A DNA stretch of 64,000 nt from a virus, in the IMG/VR virus record IMGVR_UViG_3300035698_014365, positions 1-64,000 of that record, one strand, 5' to 3'. Within the stretch, counting starts at the first letter, position 1; each line of letters starts with the position of its first letter. Under the pieces are notes generated by a model. The model worked only from the letters and a program-made list of their open reading frames with translations, searched no databases and had not been told where the DNA came from. A program made the translations under genes and the position numbers. This document shows, piece by piece, positions 20,798 through 63,428 of the stretch.

Positions 20798-20811
20798 ATC
20801 ATACCCCCCCC

Positions 20812-36391: not shown

Positions 36392-37156
36392 CTATTTCAC
36401 CAGTTTCACCGTCCAGGTCCGCTCATCGAGCCAGTCCCTGACACGGCACAGTACTTGTTTGGCGCTCGCCCCGCCCTTCATTGGGATAACCCATCCCGGA
36501 TACCAGAAGTCGAGGCAGGCGCCGTAATTGACAGGAATATTGACCTTCAGGCCGTAGAACTCTATTTCCATCAGCTCTTCAAGGTGCTGCTGTGGGATGC
36601 CCTTCATTATCGCGTCGTCGGTCTTCTTGTCAAATTCAATCACATTCGGGTCGAATTTACGACGGGTCACCCAGCGACCGGCCTTTGTGTGCCAGTAGTA
36701 GCCATTCCACGGAAACATGAGCCAGTGGCAGAACTTGTTGTTGTCGCCGTGGTGGCGCAGTGTGAACCACGCCAGGCGATGCGGGCTTATCTCAGGGTTG
36801 ACCTCCTCAGCAAGGACAGCCTCCTCGCCACGCTTCACCTTTCTGGCAATGGCTGCAAAGTCTATCTGATGGCCATCAGGGCACTTTCTGGTACACCAGT
36901 GGCCCCGGGCAAAGAACATCCCGCACTCGCCCAGCAGGCGGAAATAGTCGGCCTCCTGCTCAGCGGTTATCTTGTCCGCGAGAATGCACATATCAACGTC
37001 GTCGTCGTGGCCAATGAAGTCGCCCTCCCTGATTATCCCAAGGAGAAGGCCAAACCCGATGAATAATGCGTGCCGTATGCCAGCCTTGTCGGCACAGCGC
37101 AGCATTATCTCGATGTCGTCGATCGCCTTTTTCTTCTTTTCTGGCGTATAGCTCAT
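36392..37156 (-). CDS. LicD-like nucleotidyltransferase-fold protein 1 (254 aa)
   Basis: Residues 18-60 carry the LicD signature: a helix, then GFGLLLGIIREGDFIGHDDDVDMCI with the metal-binding DDD-x-D. LicD proteins transfer phosphocholine or related groups to sugars of teichoic acid, LPS or glycoproteins, with a nucleotidyltransferase fold. The later NIPVNYGACLDFWYPGW motif is the family's C-terminal substrate part. ATGA overlap with the next island gene. One of four LicD-like genes in this island. Confidence 0.7.
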   Translation of the reverse strand: MSYTPEKKKKAIDDIEIMLRCADKAGIRHALFIGFGLLLGIIREGDFIGHDDDVDMCILADKITAEQEADYFRLLGECGMFFARGHWCTRKCPDGHQIDFAAIARKVKRGEEAVLAEEVNPEISPHRLAWFTLRHHGDNNKFCHWLMFPWNGYYWHTKAGRWVTRRKFDPNVIEFDKKTDDAIMKGIPQQHLEELMEIEFYGLKVNIPVNYGACLDFWYPGWVIPMKGGASAKQVLCRVRDWLDERTWTVKLVK

Positions 37157-37848
37157 AGATCCTCGCAGGACTTGACAACAACCTTCCCATCAGGGGACTG
37201 GCTCTGGCCACGGAAGTACTGCCGGAAGCGCCACCCGGGATACCACTGGTCGAGAAGTGTCCCGTACGCAAAGGGAATGCGCATTTTGTACGGCCCATGG
37301 TCCTCAAATACGTCATATCGCCAGATGCCGTCCTCTCCCAGCAACCGAGACGCCTCCGGGTGAGCGGCCCCGCGGATACGCGCAATGGTCTCTGGCGCCG
37401 GCTCAAGCAGCTCTTTCCGGGTCTTCTTGAACACGTACTTCGAAGGAACCTTCTTGCCCTCCCGGTTGTAATCGTACGTGTACAGGTAGTCGCCACCGCG
37501 CGGATAGAACGCATAGATGTCCACAGTGGGCGTCCCGTGCAGCCGCGACTCAGCCGGCACACAGTGAATATTGAGCGGGCGACCGTCCTTATCATTCTTG
37601 ATAGACGTGCTGACCTTGTAGCCAAGCGCATCAAATGCCTTCTGGAGCATGTCTTCGTCGAGTTCCTGGAAGAAAACCCCTATGTCGATGTCGTACGCAT
37701 CGATTGAGAAGGTGCGGTCGGCCACATACTCGAGCATTGTCCCGAACGCGTGGAACCAGCGCAGGGGCCTCCCGTGGCGCCCGGCGAGGCTGTCCATTGC
37801 TGAGGATATGCGCTCAAACACAGCGCGGGCAAGAATCTCGTTATTCAT
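37153..37848 (-). CDS. LicD-like protein 2, divergent (231 aa)
   Basis: ATG 37848 overlaps the upstream stop as ATGAATAA. It has the family layout AFGTMLEYVADRTFSIDAYDIDIGVF, keeping D-x-D but with Leu-Glu-Tyr in place of the usual LLG-Arg, and the C-terminal IPFAYGTLLDQWYPGWRFRQY like protein 1. The loop between them is longer (VDIYAFYPRGGDYLYTYDY). Probably a transferase for a phospho-linked group with another substrate than its paralogue. Confidence 0.6.
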   Translation of the reverse strand: MNNEILARAVFERISSAMDSLAGRHGRPLRWFHAFGTMLEYVADRTFSIDAYDIDIGVFFQELDEDMLQKAFDALGYKVSTSIKNDKDGRPLNIHCVPAESRLHGTPTVDIYAFYPRGGDYLYTYDYNREGKKVPSKYVFKKTRKELLEPAPETIARIRGAAHPEASRLLGEDGIWRYDVFEDHGPYKMRIPFAYGTLLDQWYPGWRFRQYFRGQSQSPDGKVVVKSCEDL

Positions 37849-38815
37849 GCTCAATGCTCCGAATAAGGGTTTTTAGGTACTTTGCGGCAACCGGGAGGGA
37901 CAGATCCTTCTCGTACATTTCCGAGTAATGATCCGGCTCCCCGGTGAGCGAATACGCCTTGTGTGTCCTGACCTGGTCCCAGAAATGGGCCTTGTCAGCG
38001 AGGATAACGGGGTATTTATAGCCCCATATCTGCAGACTGTCACGGGCAACGACGGGGAGTCCACAGGCAAGGAACTCAGAAACCACCCTCGGACAGCTAT
38101 CATCGCGATTGTACGGCGCTATGCCCACATGACACTTGCTCATGGCCTTCGGCATTGACTCACGTGAAACATGCTTGACTTTCACGTTCTTCGGCGGCCT
38201 CTTCCCCTTCAGAGGATTTCCGAGCTGGAGGACGGACAGATCCTTGGGCACGGTGTCCCATACCCAGCCCACCCGCTTCCTCTTGTCCTTCGGGTGAATT
38301 GCCACAAAGCACACGTCGTATTTTTTCTGCTGCCTGTCGCGATATCCAAATATGTGCGACGCAGGCTTTATCCACAGGCTCGTACGCATGTACGGGTAGA
38401 GCTCATTGACACGGGCCTTCTGCTTCTCGGAATCGACCAGCACCATGTCGTAGTCCAGAAACGACGACTCGGGGACAAATCTCTTGCCGGCGCCGTAGTA
38501 CACCTTTATTGCCCAGTGATATCGTTTGAATATCGGGATGTACTCAGGGAACCCTCCCCGGGCAATTATCATGTCGGGCTTCACGGGGTGGACGTAGCTC
38601 TGTAGCCGCTTCACGAACTTGACCTCGAAGTTCTCAGAGTACCGCACCGTGCGCTTGTGACCACCATAGAGGACGGTACACGTGTCTGAAGGCCCGGTCA
38701 TGGCGTAGGCAAGCTCCGTCCATTGATCTGTCTCGTCCTCGATGCTGTCGTACAGAATCTCTTTGGGGTTCTCCCGGTCCTTCGGAAAGAATCCGCGTAG
38801 GAACAGTATGTTCAT
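37841..38815 (-). CDS. GT-B glycosyltransferase-like protein (324 aa)
   Basis: ATG 38815 overlaps the aminotransferase stop (ATGA). N-terminus MNILFLRGFFPKD starts a Rossmann strand; the C-terminal half has YDVCFVAIHPKDKRKRVGW, a hinge region, and MPKAMSKCHVGIAPYNRDDSCPRVVSEFLACGLPVVAR, the donor-site E of GT4-type enzymes (VVSEFLACGLPVV). It transfers a sugar from a nucleotide donor; acceptor unknown. Confidence 0.7.
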   Translation of the reverse strand: MNILFLRGFFPKDRENPKEILYDSIEDETDQWTELAYAMTGPSDTCTVLYGGHKRTVRYSENFEVKFVKRLQSYVHPVKPDMIIARGGFPEYIPIFKRYHWAIKVYYGAGKRFVPESSFLDYDMVLVDSEKQKARVNELYPYMRTSLWIKPASHIFGYRDRQQKKYDVCFVAIHPKDKRKRVGWVWDTVPKDLSVLQLGNPLKGKRPPKNVKVKHVSRESMPKAMSKCHVGIAPYNRDDSCPRVVSEFLACGLPVVARDSLQIWGYKYPVILADKAHFWDQVRTHKAYSLTGEPDHYSEMYEKDLSLPVAAKYLKTLIRSIEHE

Positions 38816-39930
38816 TCGTTGATTATCTCCGTTACGTGCCACACCTCATCATTGTGCAGCATCGGGTGAATGGGAAGGGTGAGTTCGTGTTCCTCGTACC
38901 AGCGCGCACCGTCCAGCGTGCCGTCCTTTTCACACACGTCGTACATCGGATACCGGTGGTTTGATTTGTAGTGCATCCCTGCGTGAATATCCGCCATCGA
39001 CAGCCTGCGGTACACCGTGTTGCGGTCAGCGAAAAACACGGGAAAGAAGTGGTTGCTACTCAGCGACGGCGCATGGCTCGGAAATAGCGTTCCCTCAAGC
39101 GTGATGTTCTTCTTGTAGAACTCGGCAATCTCAGAGCGGCGCCGGTTGTGCTCGTCGAGAACCTTCAGTTGTTCAAGGGCAATCGTGGCCGTGATGTCGT
39201 TCATGTGGGCCTTCAGGCCAACCAGCGGAACGCCGTACTCCCACGAGTAGCCATCACTGTACATGCGGGAGATAGTGTCCTTGTCGATACCCAGCCAGCG
39301 CATCTTATTTGGCGGCTCACCCTTCCACGACGCCAGTGATGGAATCACGAGCGCGCCACCATCGCCAATGCCCAAATTCTTGACCGCATGGAAGCTGAAG
39401 CAGCACTGGTTCTGAGAACACCCGATCGGCTCGCCGCTCATATACGTGCTTCCCATGGCGTGCGCACAGTCCTCAATTATCGGAATCTCTGCTGCGAGAG
39501 CAATCCCATCTATTCTACGCATGTCGCACGGATACCCTCCGAGGTGCACAATGACAATAGCCTTGGCGTCAACCTCCTCAAGCATGCGCTCTATTGATTC
39601 AGGGTCGGCGCATCCCGTTGACCACGTCACGTCGTAGAACACCGGCTCCAGCCCCTCGTAGAGCAGGGCGTGGTTGGTGGACACAAAAGTCATTGGTGTG
39701 GTGAGCACCTTGTCGCCAGGCTGCAGTCCCAGATTTTTGACTGCGAGGTGAAGTGCCGACGTACAACTGTCTGTGGCCCACACGCGCTCGTGGTTGACAT
39801 GGAACCTCTCTGCCAGAGCCTTCTCAAATTCAGCGACCTTCGGCCCGAGGCCAATCCACCCACTGTCCAGCACCGGGCGCAGGGCCTCAAGGATGTTGTC
39901 TGTCTGCATTGCTGGTCGAAATACCTGCAT
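38812..39930 (-). CDS. DegT/DnrJ/EryC1-type sugar aminotransferase (372 aa)
   Basis: ATG 39930 after AAGGAGTAGAG. A PLP fold-I enzyme: GSGWIGLGPKVAEFE-type start, DSCTSALHLA (54-63), TTPMTFVSTNHAL (77-89), IIEDCAHAMGSTY (D154 for the pyridine nitrogen) and FSFHAVKNLGIGDGGAL with the Schiff-base lysine K184. It converts a keto-sugar nucleotide to an amino sugar. With the transferases it implies synthesis of an amino-deoxysugar, though no NDP-sugar dehydratase is seen, so the keto substrate must come from the host. Confidence 0.85.
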   Translation of the reverse strand: MQVFRPAMQTDNILEALRPVLDSGWIGLGPKVAEFEKALAERFHVNHERVWATDSCTSALHLAVKNLGLQPGDKVLTTPMTFVSTNHALLYEGLEPVFYDVTWSTGCADPESIERMLEEVDAKAIVIVHLGGYPCDMRRIDGIALAAEIPIIEDCAHAMGSTYMSGEPIGCSQNQCCFSFHAVKNLGIGDGGALVIPSLASWKGEPPNKMRWLGIDKDTISRMYSDGYSWEYGVPLVGLKAHMNDITATIALEQLKVLDEHNRRRSEIAEFYKKNITLEGTLFPSHAPSLSSNHFFPVFFADRNTVYRRLSMADIHAGMHYKSNHRYPMYDVCEKDGTLDGARWYEEHELTLPIHPMLHNDEVWHVTEIINE

Positions 39931-39932
39931 CT

Positions 39933-40568
39933 CTACTCCTTCACCCAAAGGACGAATTGGTGCTTATGTGGCTTCTTCGCTGTCCGCATCTCAACCCTGA
40001 ACCCCGCCTGCTTCATTCCCGCCCTGATCTCGTGTCTGATTCCGTCATACAGCAAGCCGTCAAACAGCCCCCCCTTGCAGTGCATGGTCAGCAGAACCAT
40101 CTTGGCCCTCTTCACAACTTCTGGGACCATATGCCAGAATATCTCATACTCGGCACCGTAGCAGTCAAAGCGGATGAAGTCCGGGCGCAGATCAATGTTG
40201 TCGCAGAAATCATCGAGCTTGCTGGAGGGCACCGTCTCCACCTTGCCCTTTGTTTTGCGCACCTTCCCAACCTCGCTGTACAACGAACTGTTCCGGCTGT
40301 CCTTCCCCGAGTAGCAGTTCACCCTGACTCTCCCGGTGACGCTGCCAATGGCAAGTATCCTGATGTCCACATGCCGCGGCACATTCGCCATGAGCTTCGG
40401 GAAGTTTGACGGGTCGGCCTCCACAGCACAGACGCTGGCCTTGGGACACGCCTCGAGCATTGCATTTACGCCGTCGCCCTGGTGGCTGCCTATCTCAAGG
40501 ACAACCGGAGACTCGCCAAGGCTCGGCAGCAACTCAAGCGCGCGGACAAATTCAGCTCGTAACGACAT
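39933..40568 (-). CDS. FkbM-type methyltransferase 1 (211 aa)
   Basis: ATG 40568 with GAGG seven bases before; the frame is open further but only inside the previous gene. VVLEIGSHQGDGVNAML (SAM site), CAVEADPSNFPKLM, then DFIRFDCYGAEYEIFWHM, the FkbM block that positions the acceptor, and a C-terminal strand pair (KHQFVLWVKE). Such enzymes O-methylate sugars or polyketides. Confidence 0.7.
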   Translation of the reverse strand: MSLRAEFVRALELLPSLGESPVVLEIGSHQGDGVNAMLEACPKASVCAVEADPSNFPKLMANVPRHVDIRILAIGSVTGRVRVNCYSGKDSRNSSLYSEVGKVRKTKGKVETVPSSKLDDFCDNIDLRPDFIRFDCYGAEYEIFWHMVPEVVKRAKMVLLTMHCKGGLFDGLLYDGIRHEIRAGMKQAGFRVEMRTAKKPHKHQFVLWVKE

Positions 40569-41421
40569 CAAATACCTCTGCAAGTTTTCTCCCGGAAATA
40601 CTCGGGTGGTAGTTGGTGGCATGCGCACGGAAATCAGCAGACACAGCTTTCCTGTCCGTGTTGAGACCATTCGACTCGACAAGCTCAGGGTGCCCACACT
40701 GTTCAACCGTTGAACGGTACGCGATGCAGTCAGACACAACTGCCGGCAGCCCTATGGCCATGCACACGAGAAGGCGATTATTTGACTTCATGTTCACGGC
40801 CCAGTGGGGGTGGTGGGCAAGCACGGCCAGATCGCAGTCGCGCAGAATATCGATAAGGGTGTCAGCCGACCAGCGCATGAATATCCAGTCCTTGAACCCG
40901 GGTAGCTTGCGGTCACAGATGTACACACGCTCTTCGTACAGCCCAACTCCCGGATAATCCTTTGCCGCCGCGACATTCTGCCAGCGCCCGAACGTGGCAA
41001 TGCGCGTTATCTTGTCGCGCAAAATCACGGGGGGCTCCTCCATGGCACCGTAATCAATTGTGTCAGGCACGACAAATACCGGGAGGTCAGTATGCTTCAT
41101 CAACTCGTGGCGCTTCTCCTCGGTGTCGGTTGTCACGGCATCACAATAGCGCATCATCTTGTCGTACGGCTTGTCGCTCCAGTTCTCCCGAATATCATCC
41201 ATGTCCAGAACAACGGCAACCCCTTTGCGTTGAGCCTTCTTTGCCGCAGAAATTGTCCAGTCCCTCAGCAGCTTCTGGATATAGAGCACCTGAAAGCCGT
41301 CAAACGTGCCCTTGTATTTGCTGTACGAGTACCCCTTGGGCAGCGCCTTCAGAAACGCCTTGTACCTGATGCGCCTGGACGCAGAGGTCTTGTCCTCAAT
41401 CGGAATGGTTGCTATTCTCAT
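40552..41421 (-). CDS. GT-B glycosyltransferase-like protein (289 aa)
   Basis: ATG overlaps the upstream stop (ATGA). RIATIPIEDKTSASRRIRY start, VVLDMDDIRENW, DAVTTDTEEKRHELMK, VPDTIDYG, and CDLAVLAHHPHWAVNMKSNNRLLVCMAIGLPAVVSD, the donor-binding half of GT4-like enzymes. The usual E-x7-E is replaced by a K-S-N-N-R-L segment seen in some phage or marine GT-B proteins. Substrate unknown. Confidence 0.6.
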   Translation of the reverse strand: MRIATIPIEDKTSASRRIRYKAFLKALPKGYSYSKYKGTFDGFQVLYIQKLLRDWTISAAKKAQRKGVAVVLDMDDIRENWSDKPYDKMMRYCDAVTTDTEEKRHELMKHTDLPVFVVPDTIDYGAMEEPPVILRDKITRIATFGRWQNVAAAKDYPGVGLYEERVYICDRKLPGFKDWIFMRWSADTLIDILRDCDLAVLAHHPHWAVNMKSNNRLLVCMAIGLPAVVSDCIAYRSTVEQCGHPELVESNGLNTDRKAVSADFRAHATNYHPSISGRKLAEVFDVVTS

Positions 41422-42071
41422 TTCTTCCAGAACTCCCATAAGTGGTCGCCGCGCGACTCTTTTGTTATCCGCTTGAACCCGTCAGACTTAAACTGTCGGC
41501 ACAACTCCTCGTACTTGCGCCGATACTGCTTGGTGTCGAATGGGGCATGAGAATGCCACGACACAAATATCGCACGAATCTCCTCTGGCACACCGTCAAG
41601 CACGTCGTACTCGGCGCCCTCAATATTGACCTTGAGCAAATCGACGGGACGACGGGTTCTCTTCTTCAGGGCATTCAGGAGGTCTGTCAGGCGATACGAC
41701 ATCACGGGAACCTTCCCGTACCCCGTAATCTTCCCGCTGCGCTTCTTCTCCTTCAGTGGCTCCCTGAATATTGTGCAGCCCTGAGAGCGGTCTTTCCCCT
41801 TGTACTTATCCGGGATATACAGTTGGGAGTACCCCTTGTCGGCAGCAACAACGCAGGCGGACACGACAACCCTCTCGTCACCCTTGAATCGCTCCTCAAG
41901 CCTGCATACGCTCCGAGGCAGCGGCTCCACAGCGACAACGAGTTTGGCGCCGGCATCCAGCCATATTTTCGTGGTCTTCCCCGTGTGGGCACCAAGGTCA
42001 ATGACAATAGGGCTTCTCTGCCCCATCAGGTAGCCTACGACCGTCTCAATGCCGGGGCGCTTCTCACTCAT
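41418..42071 (-). CDS. FkbM-type methyltransferase 2 (217 aa)
   Basis: ATG 42071 after GAGGAAGTGAT. IVIDLGAHTGKTTKIWL (SAM motif I), LVVAVEPLPRSVCRLEERF, and LLKVNIEGAEYDVLDGV, the FkbM signature K-x-x-x-E-G-A-E. Homologous in layout to the enzyme at 39933 but only distantly similar. Likely methylates a sugar in the same glycan. Confidence 0.75.
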   Translation of the reverse strand: MSEKRPGIETVVGYLMGQRSPIVIDLGAHTGKTTKIWLDAGAKLVVAVEPLPRSVCRLEERFKGDERVVVSACVVAADKGYSQLYIPDKYKGKDRSQGCTIFREPLKEKKRSGKITGYGKVPVMSYRLTDLLNALKKRTRRPVDLLKVNIEGAEYDVLDGVPEEIRAIFVSWHSHAPFDTKQYRRKYEELCRQFKSDGFKRITKESRGDHLWEFWKK

Positions 42072-42072
42072 A

Positions 42073-42570
42073 TCACTTCCTCAGTACGAGGTTCGTGTAA
42101 AGGGCTCGCCCCAGATGCTTTGGCATAGGAGTTTTCCAGTCTGAATACACCCACTCCAAGTACTCCTCAATGGGGGAGTGGCACGGGTACTCGCGCCCGT
42201 AGCACACAATCTTACCGGGGTACTCAAAGAAGTGGGCGGGCATGCGCCATGTGTTGCGCACTCGGTAGGCCCCCTTCTTTTGAAACGCTGCGACTGCCAC
42301 CTCTATGTCTCCGCAGACACCGATTACCCGTAGTTTCTTCTTGGCACTGTGAACCTTGGTTTTGAAGTTGAGCTTGCGCAGCCCTCGCGCCACCATCTTT
42401 TCTTTCCCAAGCAAATCTTCTGTCTTGCAGCAAAAATCAAGGTCGTTGTCGCCCTGTATGACACCGCCTTCGCGATAGAACCCCAGAAGAGTGCCAAAGG
42501 AAATCCAGTACGGGACGCCTGCGGCGCGGAGAATTTTGTCCGTCTCGACCAATGCGTGCTCGTGGTTCAC
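42073..42570 (-). CDS. LicD-like protein 3 (165 aa)
   Basis: GTG start overlaps the methyltransferase stop (GTGA). VPYWISFGTLLGFYREGGVIQGDNDLDFCC is a good LicD core with D-x-D, and the end has YPCHSPIEEYLEWVYSDWKTPMP, the family's C-terminal motif. Shorter than bacterial LicD (about 260 residues) but complete in its core. Closest to protein 4 at 43289. Confidence 0.7.
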   Translation of the reverse strand: MNHEHALVETDKILRAAGVPYWISFGTLLGFYREGGVIQGDNDLDFCCKTEDLLGKEKMVARGLRKLNFKTKVHSAKKKLRVIGVCGDIEVAVAAFQKKGAYRVRNTWRMPAHFFEYPGKIVCYGREYPCHSPIEEYLEWVYSDWKTPMPKHLGRALYTNLVLRK

Positions 42571-43292
42571 TCTTTCACCCCCACCACGATGCAGGTTTGC
42601 CAATCCATGATGATATCTCCGTCCACAAAGCGCATGTTGTAGGCGTCCTTGACATACTGAGGGGCACCCTGGTGCAGCCACCAAATGCTGTCGCGCTTCG
42701 CTTGCTCCTTTTCGCTATTTCGCAGCCAGTTGTTGAGGCTCATTCCCTGCTGCACCACAACGTCAACGCGCTTCACCCTGCACTGCTCGTCAACAAGCCC
42801 AACAAGGGTGTCGGGGGTATAGCAATTTCTGGCTTCTTTCACCTTGAACATCTCAGTGAACCAGCCGAGGCAGCCACGCGGAGGCACGCCCTCAACAACA
42901 CACAGGCGCCCACCCGCGCTCAGAGAGCTCGCCACAGACGCCATGGCAACGACTTCGTCGGTCACTACGTGGTGAAGAACCATGCGCATGACCGCTATGT
43001 CGTAGGCGAGAACGTCGAGGCCGTGAACTATGTTGGCCGCCTCTATTGTGAACTTGTCGCCAATGCACCGCTCCCTGCACTTTTCAAGCATCTCTTCGCT
43101 CGAGTCGAGCATGTCCACGTGCTTCACGTAGGGGGAAAGTGCGGCACCCACCGCGCCGGTCCCACAGCCCGCGTCAAGCGCATAGTCGCCCGGCTTAGGA
43201 TCGACGCCGCGCAGGACCACAGAAAGGTCCGTGGCGTCATTCACCCACAGCAGGTTGTCGTAATTGTCCGCCCTTGAGTTGTCCCAGCTCAT
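42567..43292 (-). CDS. Class I SAM-dependent methyltransferase (241 aa)
   Basis: DYALDAGCGTGAVGAAL (motif I), DMLDSSEEMLEKC, DIAVMRMVLHHVVTDEVVAM, GGRLCVVEGVPP: a Methyltransf_11-type Rossmann enzyme with a C-terminal lid (SIWWLHQGAPQYVKDAYNMRF). ATGA overlap with the upstream LicD gene and GTGA overlap with the downstream one, so it is in the middle of a tightly coupled LicD-MTase-LicD set. Confidence 0.75.
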   Translation of the reverse strand: MSWDNSRADNYDNLLWVNDATDLSVVLRGVDPKPGDYALDAGCGTGAVGAALSPYVKHVDMLDSSEEMLEKCRERCIGDKFTIEAANIVHGLDVLAYDIAVMRMVLHHVVTDEVVAMASVASSLSAGGRLCVVEGVPPRGCLGWFTEMFKVKEARNCYTPDTLVGLVDEQCRVKRVDVVVQQGMSLNNWLRNSEKEQAKRDSIWWLHQGAPQYVKDAYNMRFVDGDIIMDWQTCIVVGVKE

Positions 43293-43858
43293 TTTCCCTT
43301 TACCTTTCGTTTATTCATGTACTTGTCACGGGCAGATGGGTTGCCAAAGTACGGCTTGCGCCAGTTCTTGTACTGCCATTCCAGATACTCCTCGACGGGG
43401 GACATGCACGGATACATCACATCCCCGTATCGGATGAAGTCCTTGCCAAACATCCTCGCTGGCACACGGCGCCCTTTGAATACGCGGTACTTTCCCTTGA
43501 GAAAGTGGCCCATCAGAGCCATGTCTTCGCCGCCCATGTAGGCCAGCAGGCGAGCCTTCTTGCTGTAGCTGCGCACATCGAACCCGCGCGCAAGCAGTAC
43601 CTGTTTGAGCACATTAATCTTCGGCACCAAGTCTTCGGCAAAACAGAAGAAATCAACGTCCTCATCACGCTCCAACAGGTGCCCCTCGCGGTGTATCCCC
43701 AACAGGGCGCTCATACCTATCCAGTGCCGCACTTCACAGGTGCTTAGGATGTCGTGAAATATCTCCATCACCGCGGCACGATGAGCTATCCCGGGGGAGT
43801 GCAGCAGCGAGTGGTACATCTTCAGCCACTTCTTTTCTGGCACCAAACTATAGTCCAC
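43289..43858 (-). CDS. LicD-like protein 4 (189 aa)
   Basis: GTG start at 43858 overlaps the upstream gene by 11 bases; an ATG at 43819 is an alternative. RHWIGMSALLGIHREGHLLERDEDVDFFC holds the LicD D-x-D-x-D set, and YPCMSPVEEYLEWQYKNWRKPYFG is nearly the same as the C-terminal block of protein 3 (42073), indicating a duplication. Predicted phospho-transferase on a cell-surface or virion sugar. Confidence 0.7.
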   Translation of the reverse strand: MDYSLVPEKKWLKMYHSLLHSPGIAHRAAVMEIFHDILSTCEVRHWIGMSALLGIHREGHLLERDEDVDFFCFAEDLVPKINVLKQVLLARGFDVRSYSKKARLLAYMGGEDMALMGHFLKGKYRVFKGRRVPARMFGKDFIRYGDVMYPCMSPVEEYLEWQYKNWRKPYFGNPSARDKYMNKRKVKGK

Positions 43859-44441
43859 ACTTCACCCCCACGTAGCACACCTCTTTGCCGTTCGGGATAA
43901 TGCCCTGCGACTTCGACTTCCCAAAGAAGTCCTCTCTGAAGCCCGCTGCGAGTGCCATGCCCCGGAACTCATTCTTGTGTGCGAAGTGCGCGAGGTGGTC
44001 GTTCTTCTTGCGCGCGCGCCACTCATCCGTTGTCTCAATGGGAAACGTGAGGAATATTCCACCGCCTGGCACAAGGAGACTCCAGCATGCGTCCAGAAAG
44101 GCCCCGGTACTCGCGCAGTGCTCAACACAGTGGCGGCTGAAGATGTAGTCGAACGACTCTTCTGCAAATATGGGGTGGAGGATATCGCCCTCGACGACAT
44201 TGCGTTTGCGCTCTTTGGCGTACCGTGCGTACTCAGGGACGAGCTCTACCCCAGTGGCAACGTATCCATGGCTGGCAAGCGCCTCTACGGCGTACCCGTC
44301 ACGAGAGCCAACGTCCAGAACAGTCCCCACAGACGGGAACCACCTGAAAAACGCCATCACCGTCGTGTCGATGTGGGGATGATACTTCTCTTTTTTCGAC
44401 AGGTCTTTCACTGGAAGGTCTCTGTTATCCCCGTACAGCAT
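43848..44441 (-). CDS. Class I SAM-dependent methyltransferase (197 aa)
   Basis: ATG 44441 after GGAGG. GTVLDVGSRDGYAVEALASHG (motif I), TGVELVPEYARYAKER, FDYIFSRHCVEHCASTGAFLDACWSLLVPGG: a Methyltransf_11/23-type enzyme with HCVEH as post-III motif. Ends overlapping the LicD 4 start by 11 bases. Substrate unknown; probably a glycan intermediate. Confidence 0.75.
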   Translation of the reverse strand: MLYGDNRDLPVKDLSKKEKYHPHIDTTVMAFFRWFPSVGTVLDVGSRDGYAVEALASHGYVATGVELVPEYARYAKERKRNVVEGDILHPIFAEESFDYIFSRHCVEHCASTGAFLDACWSLLVPGGGIFLTFPIETTDEWRARKKNDHLAHFAHKNEFRGMALAAGFREDFFGKSKSQGIIPNGKEVCYVGVKCGL

Positions 44442-46794: not shown

Positions 46795-46966
46795 CACTAC
46801 CGTCCCCGGCATTGTTCAACAACGCGCAATACGCCTCGCCAAGGGACTCTACGGATTTGGCAAGAGCGGGATTGCAGTCAAACTCGCTACTCTTTATGAG
46901 GTTGCGGATCTTTGCAAGAACTTCCATGCGTGTCTCTAAACGGACTTTCGTTTCATTGTCTCCCAC
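46787..46966 (-). CDS. Small helical protein (59 aa)
   Basis: A complete frame found in the gap: GTG 46966 five bases after AGGAGG, encoding GDNETKVRLETRMEVLAKIR and ending in a Gly/Asp tail. Its TAA overlaps the ATG of the methyltransferase at 46794, the same coupling used elsewhere in the island. Two helices (RMEVLAKIRNLIKSS and KSVESLGEAYCALL). No function assigned. Confidence 0.6.
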   Translation of the reverse strand: MGDNETKVRLETRMEVLAKIRNLIKSSEFDCNPALAKSVESLGEAYCALLNNAGDGSDA

Positions 46967-46980
46967 AACACCCTCCTCGC

Positions 46981-48304: not shown

Positions 48305-48312
48305 AAGTCCTC

Positions 48313-48948
48313 CTATGCGCAGTCCACACACCACCAGCGCTTGGTTTTTGTACAGTAGACAATGTCCCCCAGTTTTGGAATCTTGTCGCCGCCGCAAATC
48401 GTTATGCCGAGCTTCTTTGTCGCCTTGTACACTTTTCTCGCAAATGCCAGATATCCCTCGGGTGTATGGAGCGGGTGCTCGGCCCTGTCGAGGCAATTGA
48501 AATCATACGGCAGCCCGCTCGCATACACGTTCCAAGCATCTTCAGGATAGTGGACGTGCACCATCTTTATTGCCCACGCCTTCGCCGACCTTCTTTTTCC
48601 TCGGACGAGGAGATCGAGCTTTACGTGGACTATTTTTGTTGCCTTCGGGGTTATCCCCGCCGCCGCCATCCGCACTCGGTTCTTCCAGTCCTTCATCAGG
48701 GCTCTCTTCTTGTACACCTTGAACTCCGGGAGCTGGACAAACACCTTCATCCCCTTGTCCTTCTTGTACCGGAAGTACGCTCCCGTCATCCCCTTCGGGA
48801 CTACCTTCTCCGTCCCGTCCGGCAGCGTCCACAGCAGGCTGTGCACTCCCTTGATCAGGCCGTCCTTGTCCGAGTTCCGGTGTATCCCGTCCAGCGGAGC
48901 CTTCACCCTCGACCTCTTTATCTCCGTCAGTGTCCCCTGAATCTTCAT
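48313..48948 (-). CDS. Hypothetical basic protein in glycan island (211 aa)
   Basis: ATG 48948 after AGGAGGAAGA, a strong ribosome site. Alpha/beta protein: KIQGTLTEIKRSRVKAPLDGIHRNSDKDGL, HSLLWTLPDGTEKVVPKG, a Lys-rich middle, and a C-terminal CVDCA pair. The 5' two thirds is overlapped in another frame by the tail of the methyltransferase gene at 48542. No family recognised. Confidence 0.55.
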   Translation of the reverse strand: MKIQGTLTEIKRSRVKAPLDGIHRNSDKDGLIKGVHSLLWTLPDGTEKVVPKGMTGAYFRYKKDKGMKVFVQLPEFKVYKKRALMKDWKNRVRMAAAGITPKATKIVHVKLDLLVRGKRRSAKAWAIKMVHVHYPEDAWNVYASGLPYDFNCLDRAEHPLHTPEGYLAFARKVYKATKKLGITICGGDKIPKLGDIVYCTKTKRWWCVDCA

Positions 48949-49573
48949 TCTTCCTCCTGCCAATAACGTCCGCGAACCTCTTTTCAAGGCCCCAGTGCAC
49001 CTCACACTCAAACCCGGCCTCCTCCAGCCACGTAATAACGGTGCTGTTCTTCTCGAAATGCTGGGAGTTGTGCTCGCGCCAGTCCTTCCCCTTCTTGCGA
49101 TTGGTGCGTTCCTTCGTGCGGTTCTGGATAATCACGAGGCTGCAGTGCGGAAGAATGTGCTCTGCCACTGCGGCGAGCTCTTTGTTGGACAGGTGGTACA
49201 GGACAAAGCTGGCGTACATGGCGTTCACCTTGGCTTCCCGCTGCCCCTTGCGTATCTCCCTGCAGAAGTCCTTGGTTGACATCTTGAGAAACTCGACGTT
49301 TTGATTGAACTTCTCGATGTGCTGTGCCGTGACCTGTGCCTGCCCCATGTATCTGTCTGAGAGGTCGATGCCAATCACACTCTTGGCGTAGTGAGCCACC
49401 TCCCACACGTACAGGCCGGCGTTGCAGCCTATCTCCAGCACGTCCATGCCCTCAAACAGGGGGGCAAACTGGGAAAAGAACCTCAGCCTGATGTCGAGCC
49501 TGGGCCAGCGCTGGTAGGCTTTCTCTTTCCACTTTGCCGCGATTTTATCGTACTTATCCTTTGTGAGTTTCAT
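48542..49573 (-). CDS. SAM methyltransferase with long overprinted acidic tail (343 aa)
   Basis: Residues 1-208 are a normal class I methyltransferase (MDVLEIGCNAGLYVWEVAHYAKSVIGIDLS, NAMYASFVLYHLSNKELAAV). From about residue 209 the frame enters the next gene: residues 209-343 are Gly/Glu/Asp/Pro/Arg-rich low complexity read one frame off from the gene at 48313-48948 over 407 bases. Shifting by one base near 48948 would give the ATGA ending seen at other junctions, so the tail may come from a frameshift, a sequence error or true overprinting. Confidence 0.6.
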   Translation of the reverse strand: MKLTKDKYDKIAAKWKEKAYQRWPRLDIRLRFFSQFAPLFEGMDVLEIGCNAGLYVWEVAHYAKSVIGIDLSDRYMGQAQVTAQHIEKFNQNVEFLKMSTKDFCREIRKGQREAKVNAMYASFVLYHLSNKELAAVAEHILPHCSLVIIQNRTKERTNRKKGKDWREHNSQHFEKNSTVITWLEEAGFECEVHWGLEKRFADVIGRRKNEDSGDTDGDKEVEGEGSAGRDTPELGQGRPDQGSAQPAVDAAGRDGEGSPEGDDGSVLPVQEGQGDEGVCPAPGVQGVQEESPDEGLEEPSADGGGGDNPEGNKNSPRKARSPRPRKKKVGEGVGNKDGARPLS

Positions 49574-50120
49574 CCCATACCCCTTTCACGAACATAAGTT
49601 TTTTGTCGAACTTCCCTTTATCCATTGAGCCCGGGTGGCGGTCCTCATACCACTCGGCCCATATTGACCTTTTCCCCAAAACCCACCGTGATGCTGCGCG
49701 GCCGGCACCTGTCCATATCTCGGGTCCACCTACCCACGCATTCTTCAGCCCAAATCGGGTCACCCAGAACGGCTCCTCAAGTATCTCTATCGGCTGGCGC
49801 CGGTCGTACCCCTTCTTGCGGATGCTCTCAAACAGCTTGAATCGCTTGGGAAGGTGCACGTTGAGAATATATGCGTCCGTCCATTTGCTCATGCCAATCT
49901 TGAGCCGACGCTGGCGCTCCTTCACATAGCGAGTCTTCTTGAGCTTGCGCCAGTCGAATCCGTGCTTCTCGTACAGCTCCAGCATCTCAACGTGCGGGCT
50001 GTTCATCAGCGACAGATCCCCCTCGTAAATATCCATCGGTGTCACGACCGGGATATACCTGATGTGCAGAGCCTCCAATTGCACCTTCTCTTTGGTGCCC
50101 GTTGAGCGGATGTCACTCAT
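49554..50120 (-). CDS. ParB/sulfiredoxin-fold-like protein (188 aa)
   Basis: ATG 50120 overlaps the upstream stop (ATGAGTGA). The middle reads LFESIRKKGYDRRQPIEILEEPFWVTRFG and WVGGPEIWTGAGRAASRWVLGKRSIWAEWYED, which follows the ParB-domain plan (helix, P-I strand, G-x-R helix, strand). The GERR/GHRR-type nucleotide box is altered to GAGRAASR. Could be a CTP-binding-fold or DNA-binding protein; role in the island unknown. Confidence 0.4.
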   Translation of the reverse strand: MSDIRSTGTKEKVQLEALHIRYIPVVTPMDIYEGDLSLMNSPHVEMLELYEKHGFDWRKLKKTRYVKERQRRLKIGMSKWTDAYILNVHLPKRFKLFESIRKKGYDRRQPIEILEEPFWVTRFGLKNAWVGGPEIWTGAGRAASRWVLGKRSIWAEWYEDRHPGSMDKGKFDKKLMFVKGVWDETHKG

Positions 50121-50469
50121 TCTTGACCCCCACAAATTCATTCCACTTTGCCATCAGGCGCATGGGGCAGCTTCTCTTCTGACACTGAACATCGCCAGCG
50201 CCAATTTCCTCAATGAGTCCACAGGTGTCCTCGTGTGAGCCTTCTGTCACCCCGAAGAAGGGGCACTCCTGCTGGATGATATCTGGCCAGTCTAAATAGT
50301 TTTGGAGCGTGGGCATTGAGGAGCGCGCGTGTTCTAGTGGGCAATACTCTTTACAGCAAGAGGGTTCGCCCGGCGAGTACATGTCGGGAGAAATGAGCTC
50401 CTGAATGGAACAGCTCCCATCGTCACAAAGAATGCCAAACGTCGCACATCCTGATTTGTGGTCACCCAC
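50113..50469 (-). CDS. Cysteine-rich protein (118 aa)
   Basis: GTG 50469 six bases after AGGAGG, overlapping the GT4 stop by 8 bases. Thirteen or so cysteines: GCATFGILCDDGSC, SCCKEYCPLEHARSS, ECPFF, DTCGLIE, CQKRSCPMRLM. The spacing would suit two or three metal or Fe-S clusters. No family recognised; a small electron-transfer partner of the radical SAM enzyme is a speculative possibility. Confidence 0.55.
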   Translation of the reverse strand: MGDHKSGCATFGILCDDGSCSIQELISPDMYSPGEPSCCKEYCPLEHARSSMPTLQNYLDWPDIIQQECPFFGVTEGSHEDTCGLIEEIGAGDVQCQKRSCPMRLMAKWNEFVGVKNE

Positions 50470-51421
50470 CCAGCACCTCCTCAAAGAAGTTCAGGTAGTC
50501 GTTGGCCACATATCCTATGTCCAGCCTGTCCGGGCGCACAGCCGGCTTCCAGTTCTGGTCTGCCGACATTATCATCGCATTGGCCAGTATGACACGGTCG
50601 AGGCGCGGAGGCTTGCCAAGGTCGATGGGTTTGAACTTGAATTTCTTGTCCTGAATGGAGATGTAATTCCACCCCTCCAGCATCTCCGCTGTGCCACCCT
50701 GGTTGGTGCAAAGCACCGGGGCTCCGGCTCCGACGGCCTCGGCAACACTGTTCGGGCAGGCGTCGAGGTGCACCACGTGAACAAATGTCGATGCTGCCTT
50801 CAGATACGACGCGATGGTGACCTGATCGCACTCTCCCACATAGGTGACGTTGTCGCCCTTGTACTTCTTGTCCTGATCGAGCGCGTTGCCCAGAATGAAC
50901 AGCTTGGACTCCGGGATGCAGGCCATGTTAAACGACAGCACAATATCCTTCAGCCGCTTCTGCGCTATCCACTTGCGCGTACTGGCGACGAATATGTGTC
51001 CCTTCCCGAGGTCGCGTGCAGTGATGACATTGTCGTACCACTCGTAGTCCACACCGTTGTGGATAACCGTCTCTGGGCATTTCGGCTTGCACACGAACGC
51101 ATGGTTGACCTTGCGACTGTATTCTGACTGAAATACGACGGCATCAGCCAGCTTCACCGACTTCTTGCGCTTCGCATTGAGCTTTTCATAGTCCTCGTGC
51201 TTTGACACCCTCGCAGGGCCAATTCTCAGCACGTTCGCCCGGGCACGCGACTTGTACCTGATGTGCCCCACGTGGAGGGCAATATCCACCTTCTTGTCAG
51301 TGTCAGCCGTTACCTCTGCCCCGAGCTTCCCGAGAGCCGTAACGAGGCGCTGAACGAAGAAGCCCTTGCCACTCTTGGCAGCCGACCAGTCTCCATGCTT
51401 CGATGCTATGCAGATCTTCAT
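50462..51421 (-). CDS. GT4-family glycosyltransferase (319 aa)
   Basis: ATG overlaps the upstream stop (ATGA). KICIASKHGDWSAAKSGKGFFVQRL, VVFQSEYSRKVNHAF, TVIHNGVDYEWYDN, HIFVASTRKWIAQKRLKDIV, STFVHVVHLDACPNSVAEAVGAGAPVLCTNQGGTAEML: complete GT4 donor and acceptor parts, similar in layout to the gene at 44425. A paralogous pair is likely. Confidence 0.8.
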   Translation of the reverse strand: MKICIASKHGDWSAAKSGKGFFVQRLVTALGKLGAEVTADTDKKVDIALHVGHIRYKSRARANVLRIGPARVSKHEDYEKLNAKRKKSVKLADAVVFQSEYSRKVNHAFVCKPKCPETVIHNGVDYEWYDNVITARDLGKGHIFVASTRKWIAQKRLKDIVLSFNMACIPESKLFILGNALDQDKKYKGDNVTYVGECDQVTIASYLKAASTFVHVVHLDACPNSVAEAVGAGAPVLCTNQGGTAEMLEGWNYISIQDKKFKFKPIDLGKPPRLDRVILANAMIMSADQNWKPAVRPDRLDIGYVANDYLNFFEEVLGG

Positions 51422-52359
51422 CCCAGTAGCCTCGCCATCTTTGTCATGTTTTCGAGCCTGGTTCCGATGGCCAGCACCCGTTTTCTGCAGTCCGCCCACT
51501 CTGGCGGAACCTCTCGTGCTCGAATTCTCTCTGCTGCTTCTCCCAGCGATCGATAGACAATAGAGTTTGAATCAGTCGAGTAATCTGCCATCCCCCCACG
51601 AGCAGAATCACTGCGAACAATGATGCAGCCACTAAGAGCGGCCTGACTTGCGGCATTGTAGAATCCCTCCAGTTTGTTGGGGGCGAAGAAGTAGTCGCAG
51701 GCCCAGTAGAAATCTTGGAGCTGTTTGGGCTTTGGTTGCCGAATATGTGTCAGCCACCCCTTCTCGTAGCGACTGTTCCCAAACGTCAGCCACTCACACT
51801 CAGCCCCGAGTTTTCTGTGCAGCTTTTTGAAGGCCTTGAATTTCTTGCGCGGCAACTTTGAGTGTTGGCATCCAACAACAGCTCTTCCGCCGAACCGATC
51901 GCGCTCATAGAGGTACTGAAACTCGCTCTCCGCTAACCCCGCAAACACCACCTGCGCTTCCACTCCATGCTGTCGCAGCACCTCGGCGGGCCACGAGCTA
52001 TTGGCCATGACTATGCCACCCTTTTTGTGGAACTTCTTGAGCAGATGAATGATGTCGTGCTCGGGCATTGTCCACGTTTCGTACGGGCGTGCCCAATATG
52101 CCACCCGCTTCCCCTTGGCCTTCTCCATCACCAGCGGAACGTCGTGGATATGGACAGCCACAACCACGTCGGCGTTCTGTGGGATCGTCTCCTTTGGCTT
52201 CGGGTGCTTGAACCATGTGAATCCGTCGTGCGTCGCCACCACCGACACCTTATGCCCCAGATCGCGCAGGGCCTGAGCAGACAACAGGATGGTGCGCGTG
52301 CCACCCGTGTTGTTGAGCTGCCCCCAATAATGGTGGTCGTTGTAGAAGCATATGTTCAT
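51418..52359 (-). CDS. GT4-family glycosyltransferase (313 aa)
   Basis: ATG overlaps the GT9-like gene stop (ATGA). NICFYNDHHYWGQLNNTGGTRTILLSAQALRDLGHKVSVVATHDG is a typical GT4 N-terminus; later KLEGFYNAASQAALSGCIIVRSDSARGGMADY is the donor-site block with E (LEGF) and the ribose/phosphate loop. Soluble enzyme. Confidence 0.8.
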   Translation of the reverse strand: MNICFYNDHHYWGQLNNTGGTRTILLSAQALRDLGHKVSVVATHDGFTWFKHPKPKETIPQNADVVVAVHIHDVPLVMEKAKGKRVAYWARPYETWTMPEHDIIHLLKKFHKKGGIVMANSSWPAEVLRQHGVEAQVVFAGLAESEFQYLYERDRFGGRAVVGCQHSKLPRKKFKAFKKLHRKLGAECEWLTFGNSRYEKGWLTHIRQPKPKQLQDFYWACDYFFAPNKLEGFYNAASQAALSGCIIVRSDSARGGMADYSTDSNSIVYRSLGEAAERIRAREVPPEWADCRKRVLAIGTRLENMTKMARLLG

Positions 52360-53150
52360 AGGAATTTCCCCAGCGCCTTGACGACCTTCTTCACCGGAGG
52401 CTGCCAGTTGTGATCTTGTAAGATTTTGCACGGCGTACCAAATGGTGACCATAGCTTTTTGTACCTGTCTTTATTCGTCCCCTTGATGGCCTTCTCGTAC
52501 TTGTCGTAGGTCATCACAACATGTGGTAGCCCACACAGGCTCGCCAAATGCGCCGGGCCCGACGACGGGCTGAGCATCACCTTGCTCGAGGCCATAATAT
52601 CACACAGCCTTCTCAGCGAAATCCCTCTGAGGTCTTCTGTCCCGGGCACATGATACGCCCCCTTCGTTGTTCCAATACTGCACACGGTGTGTGGCTTCAG
52701 CGCCTCGACAACCTTCACATAGTTCTTCAGCGGCCAGTTGCGATTCTTGTGGTTCGACTTATGGGCGAATTTTGTCTCAGCGCGCGCGTGAATCACAAGG
52801 TTGTACTTCCACGCCCCACTCACCTCGCCGTACTTCACATACTCTCTCGCCCACTTGCAGCACACCTTGCGCCCGGGAGACAGGTGAATGACCTCTCCCA
52901 CCACGGGAATCGGCACATCGAACGACGGCTTAATGCGCAATTTCTTCCCGTTGAAAAACCATCGGTCGGCAACCCCGTCTGGGCTGTATGAAATAAAGTC
53001 GGTCGCAAACTCGTACAGAAACTCGTGCTCAGGCCGACATATCACCGTCACGCGCTCGAATCGTGGGGCAATATGGCGCAACGCTGGAATCCAGGTGGCG
53101 ACACACCATCCAAATTCCATAGAGTCAGGGCCTGCGACGAGGTGTCTCAT
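52356..53150 (-). CDS. GT9-like (heptosyltransferase-fold) glycosyltransferase (264 aa)
   Basis: Start ATG 53150 overlaps the small upstream gene (ATGA). N-terminal PDSMEFGWCVATWIPALRHIAP, VTVICRPEHEFLYE, then NWPLKNYVKVVEAL, CSIGTTKGAYHVPGTEDLRGISLRRLCDIMASSKVMLSPSSGPAHLASLCGLPHVVM: the last block is the GT9 donor motif (S-SGPAHLA). It probably adds a sugar to a lipid-linked or LPS-like acceptor. Confidence 0.65.
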   Translation of the reverse strand: MRHLVAGPDSMEFGWCVATWIPALRHIAPRFERVTVICRPEHEFLYEFATDFISYSPDGVADRWFFNGKKLRIKPSFDVPIPVVGEVIHLSPGRKVCCKWAREYVKYGEVSGAWKYNLVIHARAETKFAHKSNHKNRNWPLKNYVKVVEALKPHTVCSIGTTKGAYHVPGTEDLRGISLRRLCDIMASSKVMLSPSSGPAHLASLCGLPHVVMTYDKYEKAIKGTNKDRYKKLWSPFGTPCKILQDHNWQPPVKKVVKALGKFL

Positions 53151-53320
53151 GGTGTGAATCTTACGCACTCTGGTGGGTATTCTGATTCCTGCCCGTTTCC
53201 AGCAGCATCAAACCATTCACAGCAGACGTAGTTGTCGCCAACAAACGTAATAGTCATGTCTGGGCCGCCGCTGTTCAGACAAACCACATAGCCAACTTTC
53301 ATTTTTTCGTCGTCGCTCAT
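53147..53320 (-). CDS. DUF2158/YodC-like small protein (57 aa)
   Basis: A short gene read in the gap: ATG 53320 overlaps the upstream stop by one base (TGATG) and its TGA overlaps the GT9-like start. KVGYVVCLNSGGPDMTITFVG, then YVCCEWFDAAGNGQESEYPP, is the YodC/DUF2158 beta-barrel signature (VV-L-SGGP-MT, WF). It is a small SH3-like protein of unknown use found in enterobacteria and phages. Confidence 0.7.
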   Translation of the reverse strand: MSDDEKMKVGYVVCLNSGGPDMTITFVGDNYVCCEWFDAAGNGQESEYPPECVRFTP

Positions 53321-54081
53321 CACCACACCGCCTTTCTCATGGGCTTCTTTGCCCGGACAATTTTCTCACATCGCTTCTCAACGACACGCTTCTTCTTCGT
53401 CTTCACATCGCGATAATAGTAGATGAGCCTGTGGATGTGCACACATCGGCTGAGCCCAGCCAGTTCTATCGCCGGCATCATCAGCGCCAAGTCGGAGCAC
53501 GCTGGCAGCCACGCGCCCTTGTGCTTGAAACAATCCTCCGGAATCTGCCTGAACAGCTTCCATTTCATTGTCTTGAGGTGCGAGCCGCGCCACGGATGCT
53601 TCCTGACATTGGCCCCGTCGGGGTAGGCATTCGAAATCTTCGTTCTGCGGCCGACCGACTTCTTCAAATACGAGCCGTAGGTCAGCAGGCACTTCGGGTT
53701 CTTCTGGTAGGCGCGCTCAACAATGCGCAGAGCCTTCGGGTCGAGCTTATCGCCATCCCCGTCCAGAAACACCAGGATATCCTCTGGGTCGAACGGAATA
53801 CTCTCATAGGACGTGTCGCAGTGTTGCTTCTGAATCCAAGGGGCCTTGTATATCTGGCGCGCGACACCGTAGTTCTTCTCACTAACCGATATGGATATCT
53901 TCCCCAGAGGCAGATTTGCATTCCTGCGGAAGCTGTCAACGGCCGTGAGCGTCCTGTCCTCCGGCGCATCCAGTGCTACGTGCGCAACCCACTTCTCACA
54001 CGTCTGGCCGACGAGACTCTTCAGAGTCTTGCCGATCAGATGCTCTGCATTGCGAGCGCGCATGATTACGCGGAACAGCAT
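53320..54081 (-). CDS. GT2-like glycosyltransferase (253 aa)
   Basis: ATG 54081 at TGATG after AAAGGTGAT. FRVIMRARNAEHLIGKTLKSLVGQ, HVALDAPEDRTL, EDILVFLDGDGDKLDPKALRIVERAY: GT-A fold with DGDGD as metal site. YGSYLKKSVGRR and HLKTMKWKLFRQI suggest the acceptor loop seen in GT2 enzymes. Very basic C-terminus. Confidence 0.75.
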   Translation of the reverse strand: MLFRVIMRARNAEHLIGKTLKSLVGQTCEKWVAHVALDAPEDRTLTAVDSFRRNANLPLGKISISVSEKNYGVARQIYKAPWIQKQHCDTSYESIPFDPEDILVFLDGDGDKLDPKALRIVERAYQKNPKCLLTYGSYLKKSVGRRTKISNAYPDGANVRKHPWRGSHLKTMKWKLFRQIPEDCFKHKGAWLPACSDLALMMPAIELAGLSRCVHIHRLIYYYRDVKTKKKRVVEKRCEKIVRAKKPMRKAVW

Positions 54082-54986
54082 CAGCAAATCACCTTTCTGG
54101 AGTTGTGCAGGAGCTTCTTTGTCCCCTTGTCGCTCCCCATGCACGCCTTGGCAATAGCAATCCACTCAGGGTCTTTCCACAGCCTCTTATAGCGCTTCAC
54201 GGCCGTCTCGGTGATGAGTTTGCTGCGACGCCCCTCTTTGAGCCTTCTGGCAAACTTGAAGTCCCCAAGATGGATGTCGCGGTAGCTCGCACTCGACTTC
54301 TGACCATTTGGCATCTCGTTCTTGTGCTTCGGAACCTTGATTCCTGACCCGCGCAGCATCCGGCAGTGCATGACCTCGTCGTACTCCCGATAGCTGCCAA
54401 ACTTGTGCTTATCGAGACCATCCCTCTTCTGTCCGGTCGCAACAGCCTTGTAGAGCGCGCGCTGAGCCTTCACGGCCTTCAGCCATTGTTTCACGTGAAT
54501 CATCACTGTACCACCGCAGATGCGCATGTAGTGGTCGCGCCAGCCGTGCTCACCGTGAATCTTCGGGCGCCAGGGGCGAGTAGACGGGCCCCGGAACGCA
54601 CTGTACGGAACTCCGCCCTTTTTCATCACAGACACGTGGTACTGGAGGTGTGTTGGCGTGTGACGGAAAACGACGAAATCCACGTCCGTGATATACGCAT
54701 ATTTGTAAGGCTTCAGGTAAGCTCGCGGTATCAGCAACCGACAGGCGCCACAGGTTCCCTTCCCGTTCCGATAATTCAGGAATTGATTCTCTATCACATC
54801 CCAGCCCACCATAGACTGAAACGGCTTCGTATTGAGAATCGCAGCAACCCCTGGCAGCAACTTCCCTCGGATTAGTACCTTCACGTCCCACTCTGGGTAC
54901 GCTCGTTTTACCGAGTATATCCACAGGGGAATGAAGAATTCAAACCCGTCGGCGCTGACAACCGTGAATGCACACACCTTCGCCAT
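54081..54986 (-). CDS. GT8-like glycosyltransferase (301 aa)
   Basis: AKVCAFTVVSADGFEFFIPLWIYSVKRAYPEW, then CGACRLLIPRAYLKPYKYAYITDVDFVVFRHTP with the D-V-D metal motif, and ICGGTVMIHVKQWLKAV as the conserved GG-MI block. These are the hallmarks of GT8-like or related GT-A galactosyl/glucosyl-transferases. First gene of the island proper, transcribed right after the sponge candidate. Confidence 0.65.
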   Translation of the reverse strand: MAKVCAFTVVSADGFEFFIPLWIYSVKRAYPEWDVKVLIRGKLLPGVAAILNTKPFQSMVGWDVIENQFLNYRNGKGTCGACRLLIPRAYLKPYKYAYITDVDFVVFRHTPTHLQYHVSVMKKGGVPYSAFRGPSTRPWRPKIHGEHGWRDHYMRICGGTVMIHVKQWLKAVKAQRALYKAVATGQKRDGLDKHKFGSYREYDEVMHCRMLRGSGIKVPKHKNEMPNGQKSSASYRDIHLGDFKFARRLKEGRRSKLITETAVKRYKRLWKDPEWIAIAKACMGSDKGTKKLLHNSRKVIC

Positions 54987-63421: not shown

Positions 63422-63428
63422 AGAGAAC

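Follow-up and report, generated by a model that had tools for sequence, protein, structure and literature searches.

We analyzed a window comprising bases 1 to 64000 of a 76,709-base virus record (IMG/VR record IMGVR_UViG_3300035698_014365) and examined an island of sugar-chemistry genes at positions 36392 to 54986. Our favored reading, to which we assign a probability of roughly 0.55, is that the island is a phage-owned operon whose products would glycosylate virion proteins in the cytoplasm, using host precursors. The product would be a methylated, probably phosphate-substituted glycan. We favor virion glycosylation because of the site of the island among packaging and head genes, the recurrence of this pattern in unrelated phages, the reported mycobacteriophage cases, and the missing membrane parts.

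Composition of the island

The island contains 25 genes, all on the minus strand, and makes up approximately 24% of the genome. It lies between the genes for the large terminase (TerL) and a P22-type portal, and the gene order small terminase (TerS), TerL, island, portal confirms its placement inside a packaging/structural region, as proposed in an initial annotation of the window. That annotation claimed at least 19 enzymes of sugar chemistry. We count approximately 22 likely sugar-building or sugar-decorating enzymes among the 25 genes, and the classes agree except for the glycosyltransferase (GT)-like proteins, of which we find 10 rather than nine. The tally, which takes in sub-threshold and motif-based assignments, is four LicD-like proteins, 10 GT-like proteins, six methyltransferases (two of them FkbM), one DegT, one radical SAM/SPASM enzyme, and three proteins of no assigned function. 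The genes are listed below with the evidence for each (SAM, S-adenosylmethionine; pI, isoelectric point; E, expectation value) and are referred to in the text by their first coordinate.

36392..37156, minus: LicD-like phosphotransferase; PF04991 22.1 bits (cut-off 22.6); motif G..LG..RE..D.D.D
37153..37854, minus: LicD-like, divergent; no Pfam match; homologous to 36392 (E 8e-6, 29-sequence set); D.D motif
37841..38842, minus: GT4-like glycosyltransferase; PF13692 23.3 bits, sub-cut-off
38812..39948, minus: DegT/DnrJ/EryC1/StrS sugar aminotransferase; PF01041 274 bits; best named PDB relatives ArnB and similar
39933..40739, minus: FkbM methyltransferase; PF05050 29.3 bits
40552..41439, minus: GT4-like glycosyltransferase, divergent; PF13692 E 0.0024, sub-cut-off
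41418..42071, minus: FkbM methyltransferase; PF05050 52.2 bits
42073..42684, minus: LicD-like phosphotransferase; PF04991 28.2 bits, above cut-off
42567..43292, minus: SAM methyltransferase; PF08242 46.3 bits
43289..43858, minus: LicD-like phosphotransferase; no Pfam match; 92.6 bits against LicD 42073; motif LLG..RE..D.D.D
43848..44444, minus: SAM methyltransferase; PF08241 56.8 bits
44425..45300, minus: GT4 glycosyltransferase; PF13439 37.1 bits
45297..46130, minus: radical SAM/SPASM enzyme; PF04055 41 bits, PF13186 32.6 bits; CX3CX2C
46114..46812, minus: methyltransferase (Methyltransf_24); PF13578 30.6 bits
46981..47733, minus: GT2 glycosyltransferase; PF00535 97 bits
47726..48496, minus: GT8-like (weak); DxD motif only; no family or PDB match
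48313..48948, minus: basic protein, 25th gene, no assigned function; overlapping open frame of normal-looking composition; no Pfam match
48542..49573, minus: SAM methyltransferase; PF13489 37.6 bits; low-complexity C-terminal tail overlaps next gene
49554..50141, minus: protein of pI 9.9, no assigned function; sub-threshold CG-1 match only
50113..50484, minus: small Cys-rich protein, no assigned function; no match
50462..51499, minus: GT4 glycosyltransferase, paralogue of 44425; PF00534 36.3 bits; 80.5 bits against 44425
51418..52452, minus: GT4-like glycosyltransferase; PF13439 E 2e-4, sub-cut-off
52356..53168, minus: GT9-like glycosyltransferase; motif G..HL....G.P; homologue in viral island L009, E 2e-43
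53320..54165, minus: GT2 glycosyltransferase; PF00535 24.7 bits, above cut-off
54081..54986, minus: GT8-like (weak); DxD motif only; no family or PDB match

Pfam matches at E ≤0.01 were obtained for 17 island proteins. Thirteen exceeded the curated cut-off (DegT; both FkbM proteins; LicD 42073; methyltransferases 42567, 43848, 46114, and 48542; GT4 44425 and 50462; GT2 46981 and 53320; and both domains of radical SAM/SPASM 45297), and four matches were weaker (LicD 36392 and GT4-like 37841, 40552, and 51418). Another five enzyme assignments are based on homology or motif (37153, 43289, 47726, 52356, and 54081). The PF04991 cut-off is passed by just one of the four LicD-like proteins, 42073, with 36392 falling short by 0.5 bit. 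PDB sequence searches with 37153, 47726, 52356, and 54081 returned chance-level matches only. The putative GT8-like assignments of 47726 and 54081 are the weakest in the island; a structure of 54081 predicted without relatives reached a predicted local distance difference test score (pLDDT) of 33, with no usable fold. Active-site motifs are intact in most of the island enzymes. The motif patterns for 37153 (LicD_b) and 53320 (GT2_b) were unmatched, with Asp motifs visible by eye in both proteins, and GT4-like 40552 and 51418 are without the usual Glu. There are two clear paralogue pairs, LicD 42073/43289 and GT4 44425/50462.

As the initial annotation had noted, the genes are tightly packed: the majority of neighbors overlap or adjoin within approximately 25 nucleotides (nt). 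Using the longest starts, two true gaps are present, of approximately 150 nt (53169-53319) and 170 nt (46813-46980). At 48313-49573, the tail of the methyltransferase open reading frame (ORF) runs over a plausible gene in another frame, which represents either an overlap or a frameshift. The island's position suggests that its genes would be transcribed late, together with the packaging and head genes; scores from a promoter and terminator scan were no higher than those of shuffled sequences.

Functions absent from the record

We extended the reported lack of a flippase, polymerase, or membrane protein from the island to the whole 76.7-kb record. A simple hydropathy scan of all ORFs of at least 80 amino acids found no multi-span membrane protein; the maximum was three hydrophobic segments, in a single ORF antisense to the portal gene. 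No match to flippase, polymerase, ligase, or export families was detected in the proteins scanned. Features of a Wzx/Wzy- or ABC-type export locus, including a membrane initiating GT, were not found in the record, nor was a membrane-anchored GT of the GtrABS type. The reported lack of these functions is thus borne out, and a cytoplasmic sugar product made without phage export machinery is supported. The accompanying claim that the product is probably not a new exported polysaccharide holds for the phage's own genes, among which no export functions were found, but not for the host: the missing flippase leaves room for modification of lipopolysaccharide (LPS) or teichoic precursors, because the host could carry out the export.

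No sugar dehydratase, epimerase, or sugar nucleotidylyltransferase was matched in the proteins scanned, which makes DegT the sole donor-synthesis enzyme found; the sugar donors would therefore have to come from the host.

Related clusters in other viruses

A search for the same gene set in other phages, suggested with the initial annotation, found small GT-LicD and DegT-GT-methyltransferase cassettes but no island-bearing relative. Contig L054 (IMGVR_UViG_3300005782_000009) carries a GT2-like and LicD pair at 9156-10579, between genes judged by eye to be coat-like and tail-like. Its LicD was the sole relative recovered by a LicD scan of viral contigs, a second scan gave the same contig, and it is the closest viral LicD relative found. 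The pair resembles the island in combining GT2-like and LicD genes in a head/tail module; unlike the island, it consists of two genes only, and its LicD is 28 to 32% identical to one of the island's LicD types. In L003, a DegT/methyltransferase/GT cassette adjoins a gp6-like head-tail connector gene, and the L011 group has a sugar cluster ≤10 kb from a tail fiber gene. The podovirus ct7QV12 (MW202713.1) likewise carries a "tibC" GT, a methyltransferase, and a DegT-type enzyme beside TerL, portal, and coat genes, but these are three genes directly upstream of TerL and not in the TerL-portal interval.

A DegT-based search yielded 40 viral loci, which fall into 10 independent groups. Of the 39 DegT-bearing viral records other than ours, 36 also have GT2, six have FkbM, and none has LicD; these tallies give no rate because only 10 independent groups are represented. 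In viral sugar clusters, the combination of DegT and GT2 is common and LicD is unusual.

Mucin-like ORFs were seen directly downstream of an approximately 19-gene sugar island at L022:16776-20525 and 14045-14887 and at L021:14419-15723 and 19537-20871. They contain up to 92% Ser/Thr, in one case over 1,249 amino acids, and are possibly O-glycosylated virion stalks or low-complexity artifacts. Aphanizomenon phage Yong-DA (L050, ON073792.1) was set aside as support. It is a 42.6-kb circle with exopolysaccharide Wzy/Wzc-like genes, ParA/ParB, and a replication protein, and the part viewed looks plasmid-like.

Among described systems, the mycobacteriophage Corndog (Cluster O) is the one we liken to the island by gene content and position. 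Its gp35-38, comprising an O-methyltransferase plus three GTs, are encoded between the portal and capsid protease genes (PMC4351075), and GT and O-methyltransferase genes within a head/packaging operon are found in our phage as well. The Corndog cassette has four genes in the portal-protease interval, versus 25 genes in the TerL-portal interval with LicD, DegT, FkbM, and radical SAM. Virion glycosylation, on capsid and tail-tube proteins, has been described for Che8, Corndog, and Myrna (cited in PMC12363180 and PMC11600133). Corndog's product is reported on virion proteins. The Corndog cassette enzymes themselves were detected in infected cells but went undetected in virions, and few capsid peptides were recovered (PMC4351075).

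P-SSM2 and the pelagimyophages provide earlier examples of large phage sugar clusters; the island is notable for its share of the genome, its site, and its four LicD-type enzymes. The P-SSM2 cluster (one of the cyanophage LPS clusters, with that of S-SSM7) consists of 15 consecutive GT and sugar genes spanning approximately 12 kb. It differs in having a dehydratase and epimerases for donors, in lying by hli/psbA away from head genes, and in taking up little of its 252-kb T4-like genome, compared to approximately 24% here. The host recognition cluster of pelagimyophages (Mosig and relatives) shares with the island many GTs, a MoaA-like radical SAM enzyme, an aminotransferase, a methyltransferase, and proximity to virion genes, in their case tail-fiber genes; it differs in its T4-like genome, mixed strands, and nitroreductase, carbamoyltransferase, and dioxygenase genes. 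Of the features that define T4-like marine clusters, the island shows several GTs and sugar enzymes in a block; it has no dehydratase or epimerase, and a P22-type portal and Sf6-type TerS stand in place of a T4-like background. The Flandersviridae also carry a LicD enzyme (PMC8008677), but as a LicD/IspD two-gene insertion in the replication module without a GT island. Giant viruses (chlorovirus, mimivirus), likened here by description, have clustered virus-encoded glycan synthesis that decorates their virions (PMC9614988); these viruses infect eukaryotes and encode sugar-nucleotide pathways of their own.

Predicted pathway and alternative explanations

We infer the substrates, each chemical step, the acceptor, the benefit, and the late co-transcription in the following scheme for virion glycosylation. 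The island would be transcribed along with the packaging and head genes, and the host would supply nucleotide-activated sugars and probably cytidine diphosphate (CDP)-alcohols. DegT would aminate a 4-keto sugar nucleotide of the host, and up to ten GTs, working in the cytoplasm, would assemble at least one short chain on a virion protein. Hydroxyls would be capped by FkbM and the other methyltransferases, the LicD-type enzymes would add phosphodiester-linked groups, and the radical SAM/SPASM enzyme may modify a sugar or the acceptor. Building the decorated protein into the particle would alter its surface, with possible effects on stability, adsorption, or evasion of binding molecules. We tentatively extend this scheme to a capsule-like coat on the particle, in which more than 20 enzymes would assemble several methylated, phosphodiester-bearing heteroglycans on virion proteins in the cytoplasm; if true, this would be a bacterial-virus counterpart of the giant-virus glycan coats.

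Several points weigh against virion glycosylation. A virion protein is the favored candidate acceptor, but none was identified, and Ser/Thr-rich virion proteins are missing from this phage (at most 37.5% Ser/Thr in any 40 amino acids). The ten GT-like proteins are all basic (pI 8.1 to 10.1), a property equally compatible with peripheral membrane enzymes whose acceptors are lipid-linked. Some comparable clusters exist outside structural modules, both in P-SSM2 and in L009, where a DegT-GT9-like island lies (judged by eye) near genes for replication and nucleotide metabolism. The comparators were selected and give no rate.

The same enzymes might instead remodel the host surface, using LPS core, O-antigen, or teichoic precursors as substrates at the inner membrane face, with the host exporting the product and the changed surface stopping superinfection or re-adsorption to debris. 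We regard this as the main rival and a serious one, although less likely than virion glycosylation. Enzymes of the GT9-like and LicD-like kinds are characteristic of LPS and teichoic pathways, which argues for a host-surface target, as does the basic pI of the GT-like proteins. It is also how authors have read the pelagimyophage GT clusters, with a host O-chain change favored (PMC7029224), and the Gratiaviridae GTs and Flandersviridae LicD, the latter as teichoic acid modification (PMC8008677). The packaging/head site, however, suggests late expression, when superinfection exclusion would be less useful; the record has neither a GtrABS-type GT nor a multi-span protein; and the GT-LicD pair of L054 sits in a head/tail module. 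It is unlikely that the island instead yields a soluble small glycoconjugate, some unrelated metabolite, or several separate modifications, such as changes to host proteins. The radical SAM/SPASM enzyme and three unassigned proteins leave room for other chemistry, and no acceptor is known, but ten GT-like proteins and decorating enzymes in a near-continuous operon better fit stepwise glycan assembly.

Of the two acceptors proposed in the initial annotation, virion proteins fit the position of the island and the comparators, but DNA does not fare as well. LicD, DegT, and FkbM are not known to belong to any DNA-sugar pathway, which counts against sugars being placed on a modified phage base as protection from restriction. 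Some phages do have GTs that hypermodify their DNA (cited in PMC12619734). Here, a DNA acceptor is unsupported because no gene for a hydroxylated or activated base and no thymidylate-synthase-like gene was found among the scanned proteins (small ORFs were partly scanned) and the sole DNA-modification gene found encodes an ordinary C5-cytosine methylase; we regard DNA glycosylation as very improbable. We are just as skeptical of an assembly chimera or non-functional stuffer DNA. The island is known from one genome, with no island-bearing relative in the collections searched, and "stuffer DNA" was suggested for the cyanophage LPS genes, whose function was left open (PMC3037559). Against this, GC content, GC content at third codon positions, and codon usage match the phage (correlation of codon usage with the structural genes 0.97, equal to the values between parts of the phage itself), the borders lie 1 to 10 nt from adjacent genes, the genes are open and mostly motif-intact, and the record has an exact 95-bp terminal repeat. 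No convincing flanking repeats of an insertion were found around the island. Neither chance nor a chimera is a probable source of the gene set.

Overall, the interpretation given in the initial annotation is partly supported. Whether host or virion is the target of phage sugar clusters has gone mostly untested over the years that such clusters have been known, and reports of LicD-type enzymes in phages are rare. Should the product sit on the virion, it would mean that phages are able to bear elaborate phospho-glycans, with effects on how particles adsorb and are cleared and on how stable their capsids are. The recurrence of GT-LicD and DegT-GT-methyltransferase cassettes by head genes (L054, L003, and ct7QV12), along with the mucin-like ORFs of L022, suggests a testable general rule.

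Genome record and lineage

The genome is probably complete, at approximately 76.6 kb, because the first and last 95 bases of the record are identical. Megablast of the 33.4- to 58.2-kb region gave zero DNA-level matches in the phage collection, and the portal had no tblastn match there. With the GT9-like, GT8-like, and LicD proteins as tblastn queries, no relatives of the phage were found among phages. TerL is at best approximately 33% identical to known phages among the matches listed. Scans of viral and genome contigs for relatives of the phage found only a TerL sister, L043, a 4-kb contig whose TerL is 80% identical and preceded by the same HNH/AP2 gene; the contig stops before the island position. 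GT9-like and GT8-like scans of viral contigs found nothing, in part because single-protein patterns require exact 8-mers, and genome contigs scanned for LicD yielded no relative. This uncultured phage lineage is rare in the collections searched.

Neighboring genes

On the minus strand, the order is TerS, C5-cytosine methylase, small genes, HNH/AP2, TerL, island, portal, scaffold and coat candidates, and virion genes:

62825..63430, minus: small terminase, Sf6 TerS-like; PF20901 E 1e-5, slightly below cut-off
61328-62449, minus: C5-cytosine DNA methylase, between TerS and TerL; Pfam match covers middle of family profile only
58139-58843, minus: HNH/AP2 protein; precedes TerL
56059..58164, minus: TerL, upstream border of island; phrog_2 E 2e-33
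54988..55359, minus: small Acb2/Tad1 hairpin-domain protein, 1 nt upstream of island; PF24729 29.8 bits, exceeds cut-off
33429..35570, minus: portal, downstream border of island; PF16510 P22_portal E 2e-34
31680-33347, minus: scaffold candidate, from gene order and size only
30327-31619, minus: coat candidate, from gene order and size only
23599-25914: PKD and Laminin_G_3 (lectin-like) domain protein, virion region
8155-12768, minus: tail fiber, with further virion genes in same stretch

Three small genes separate TerL from the island, including the one with the Acb2/Tad1 hairpin, and two small genes separate the island from the portal. The hairpin protein is possibly a sponge of the anti-CBASS or anti-Thoeris type, or it may share only the hairpin with such proteins. 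The plus strand carries DnaB, an exonuclease, and an RlaP-like nucleotidyltransferase, among others; the last, of an RNA repair family, lies in the early region at L002:14247-15026 (record 71246-72025).

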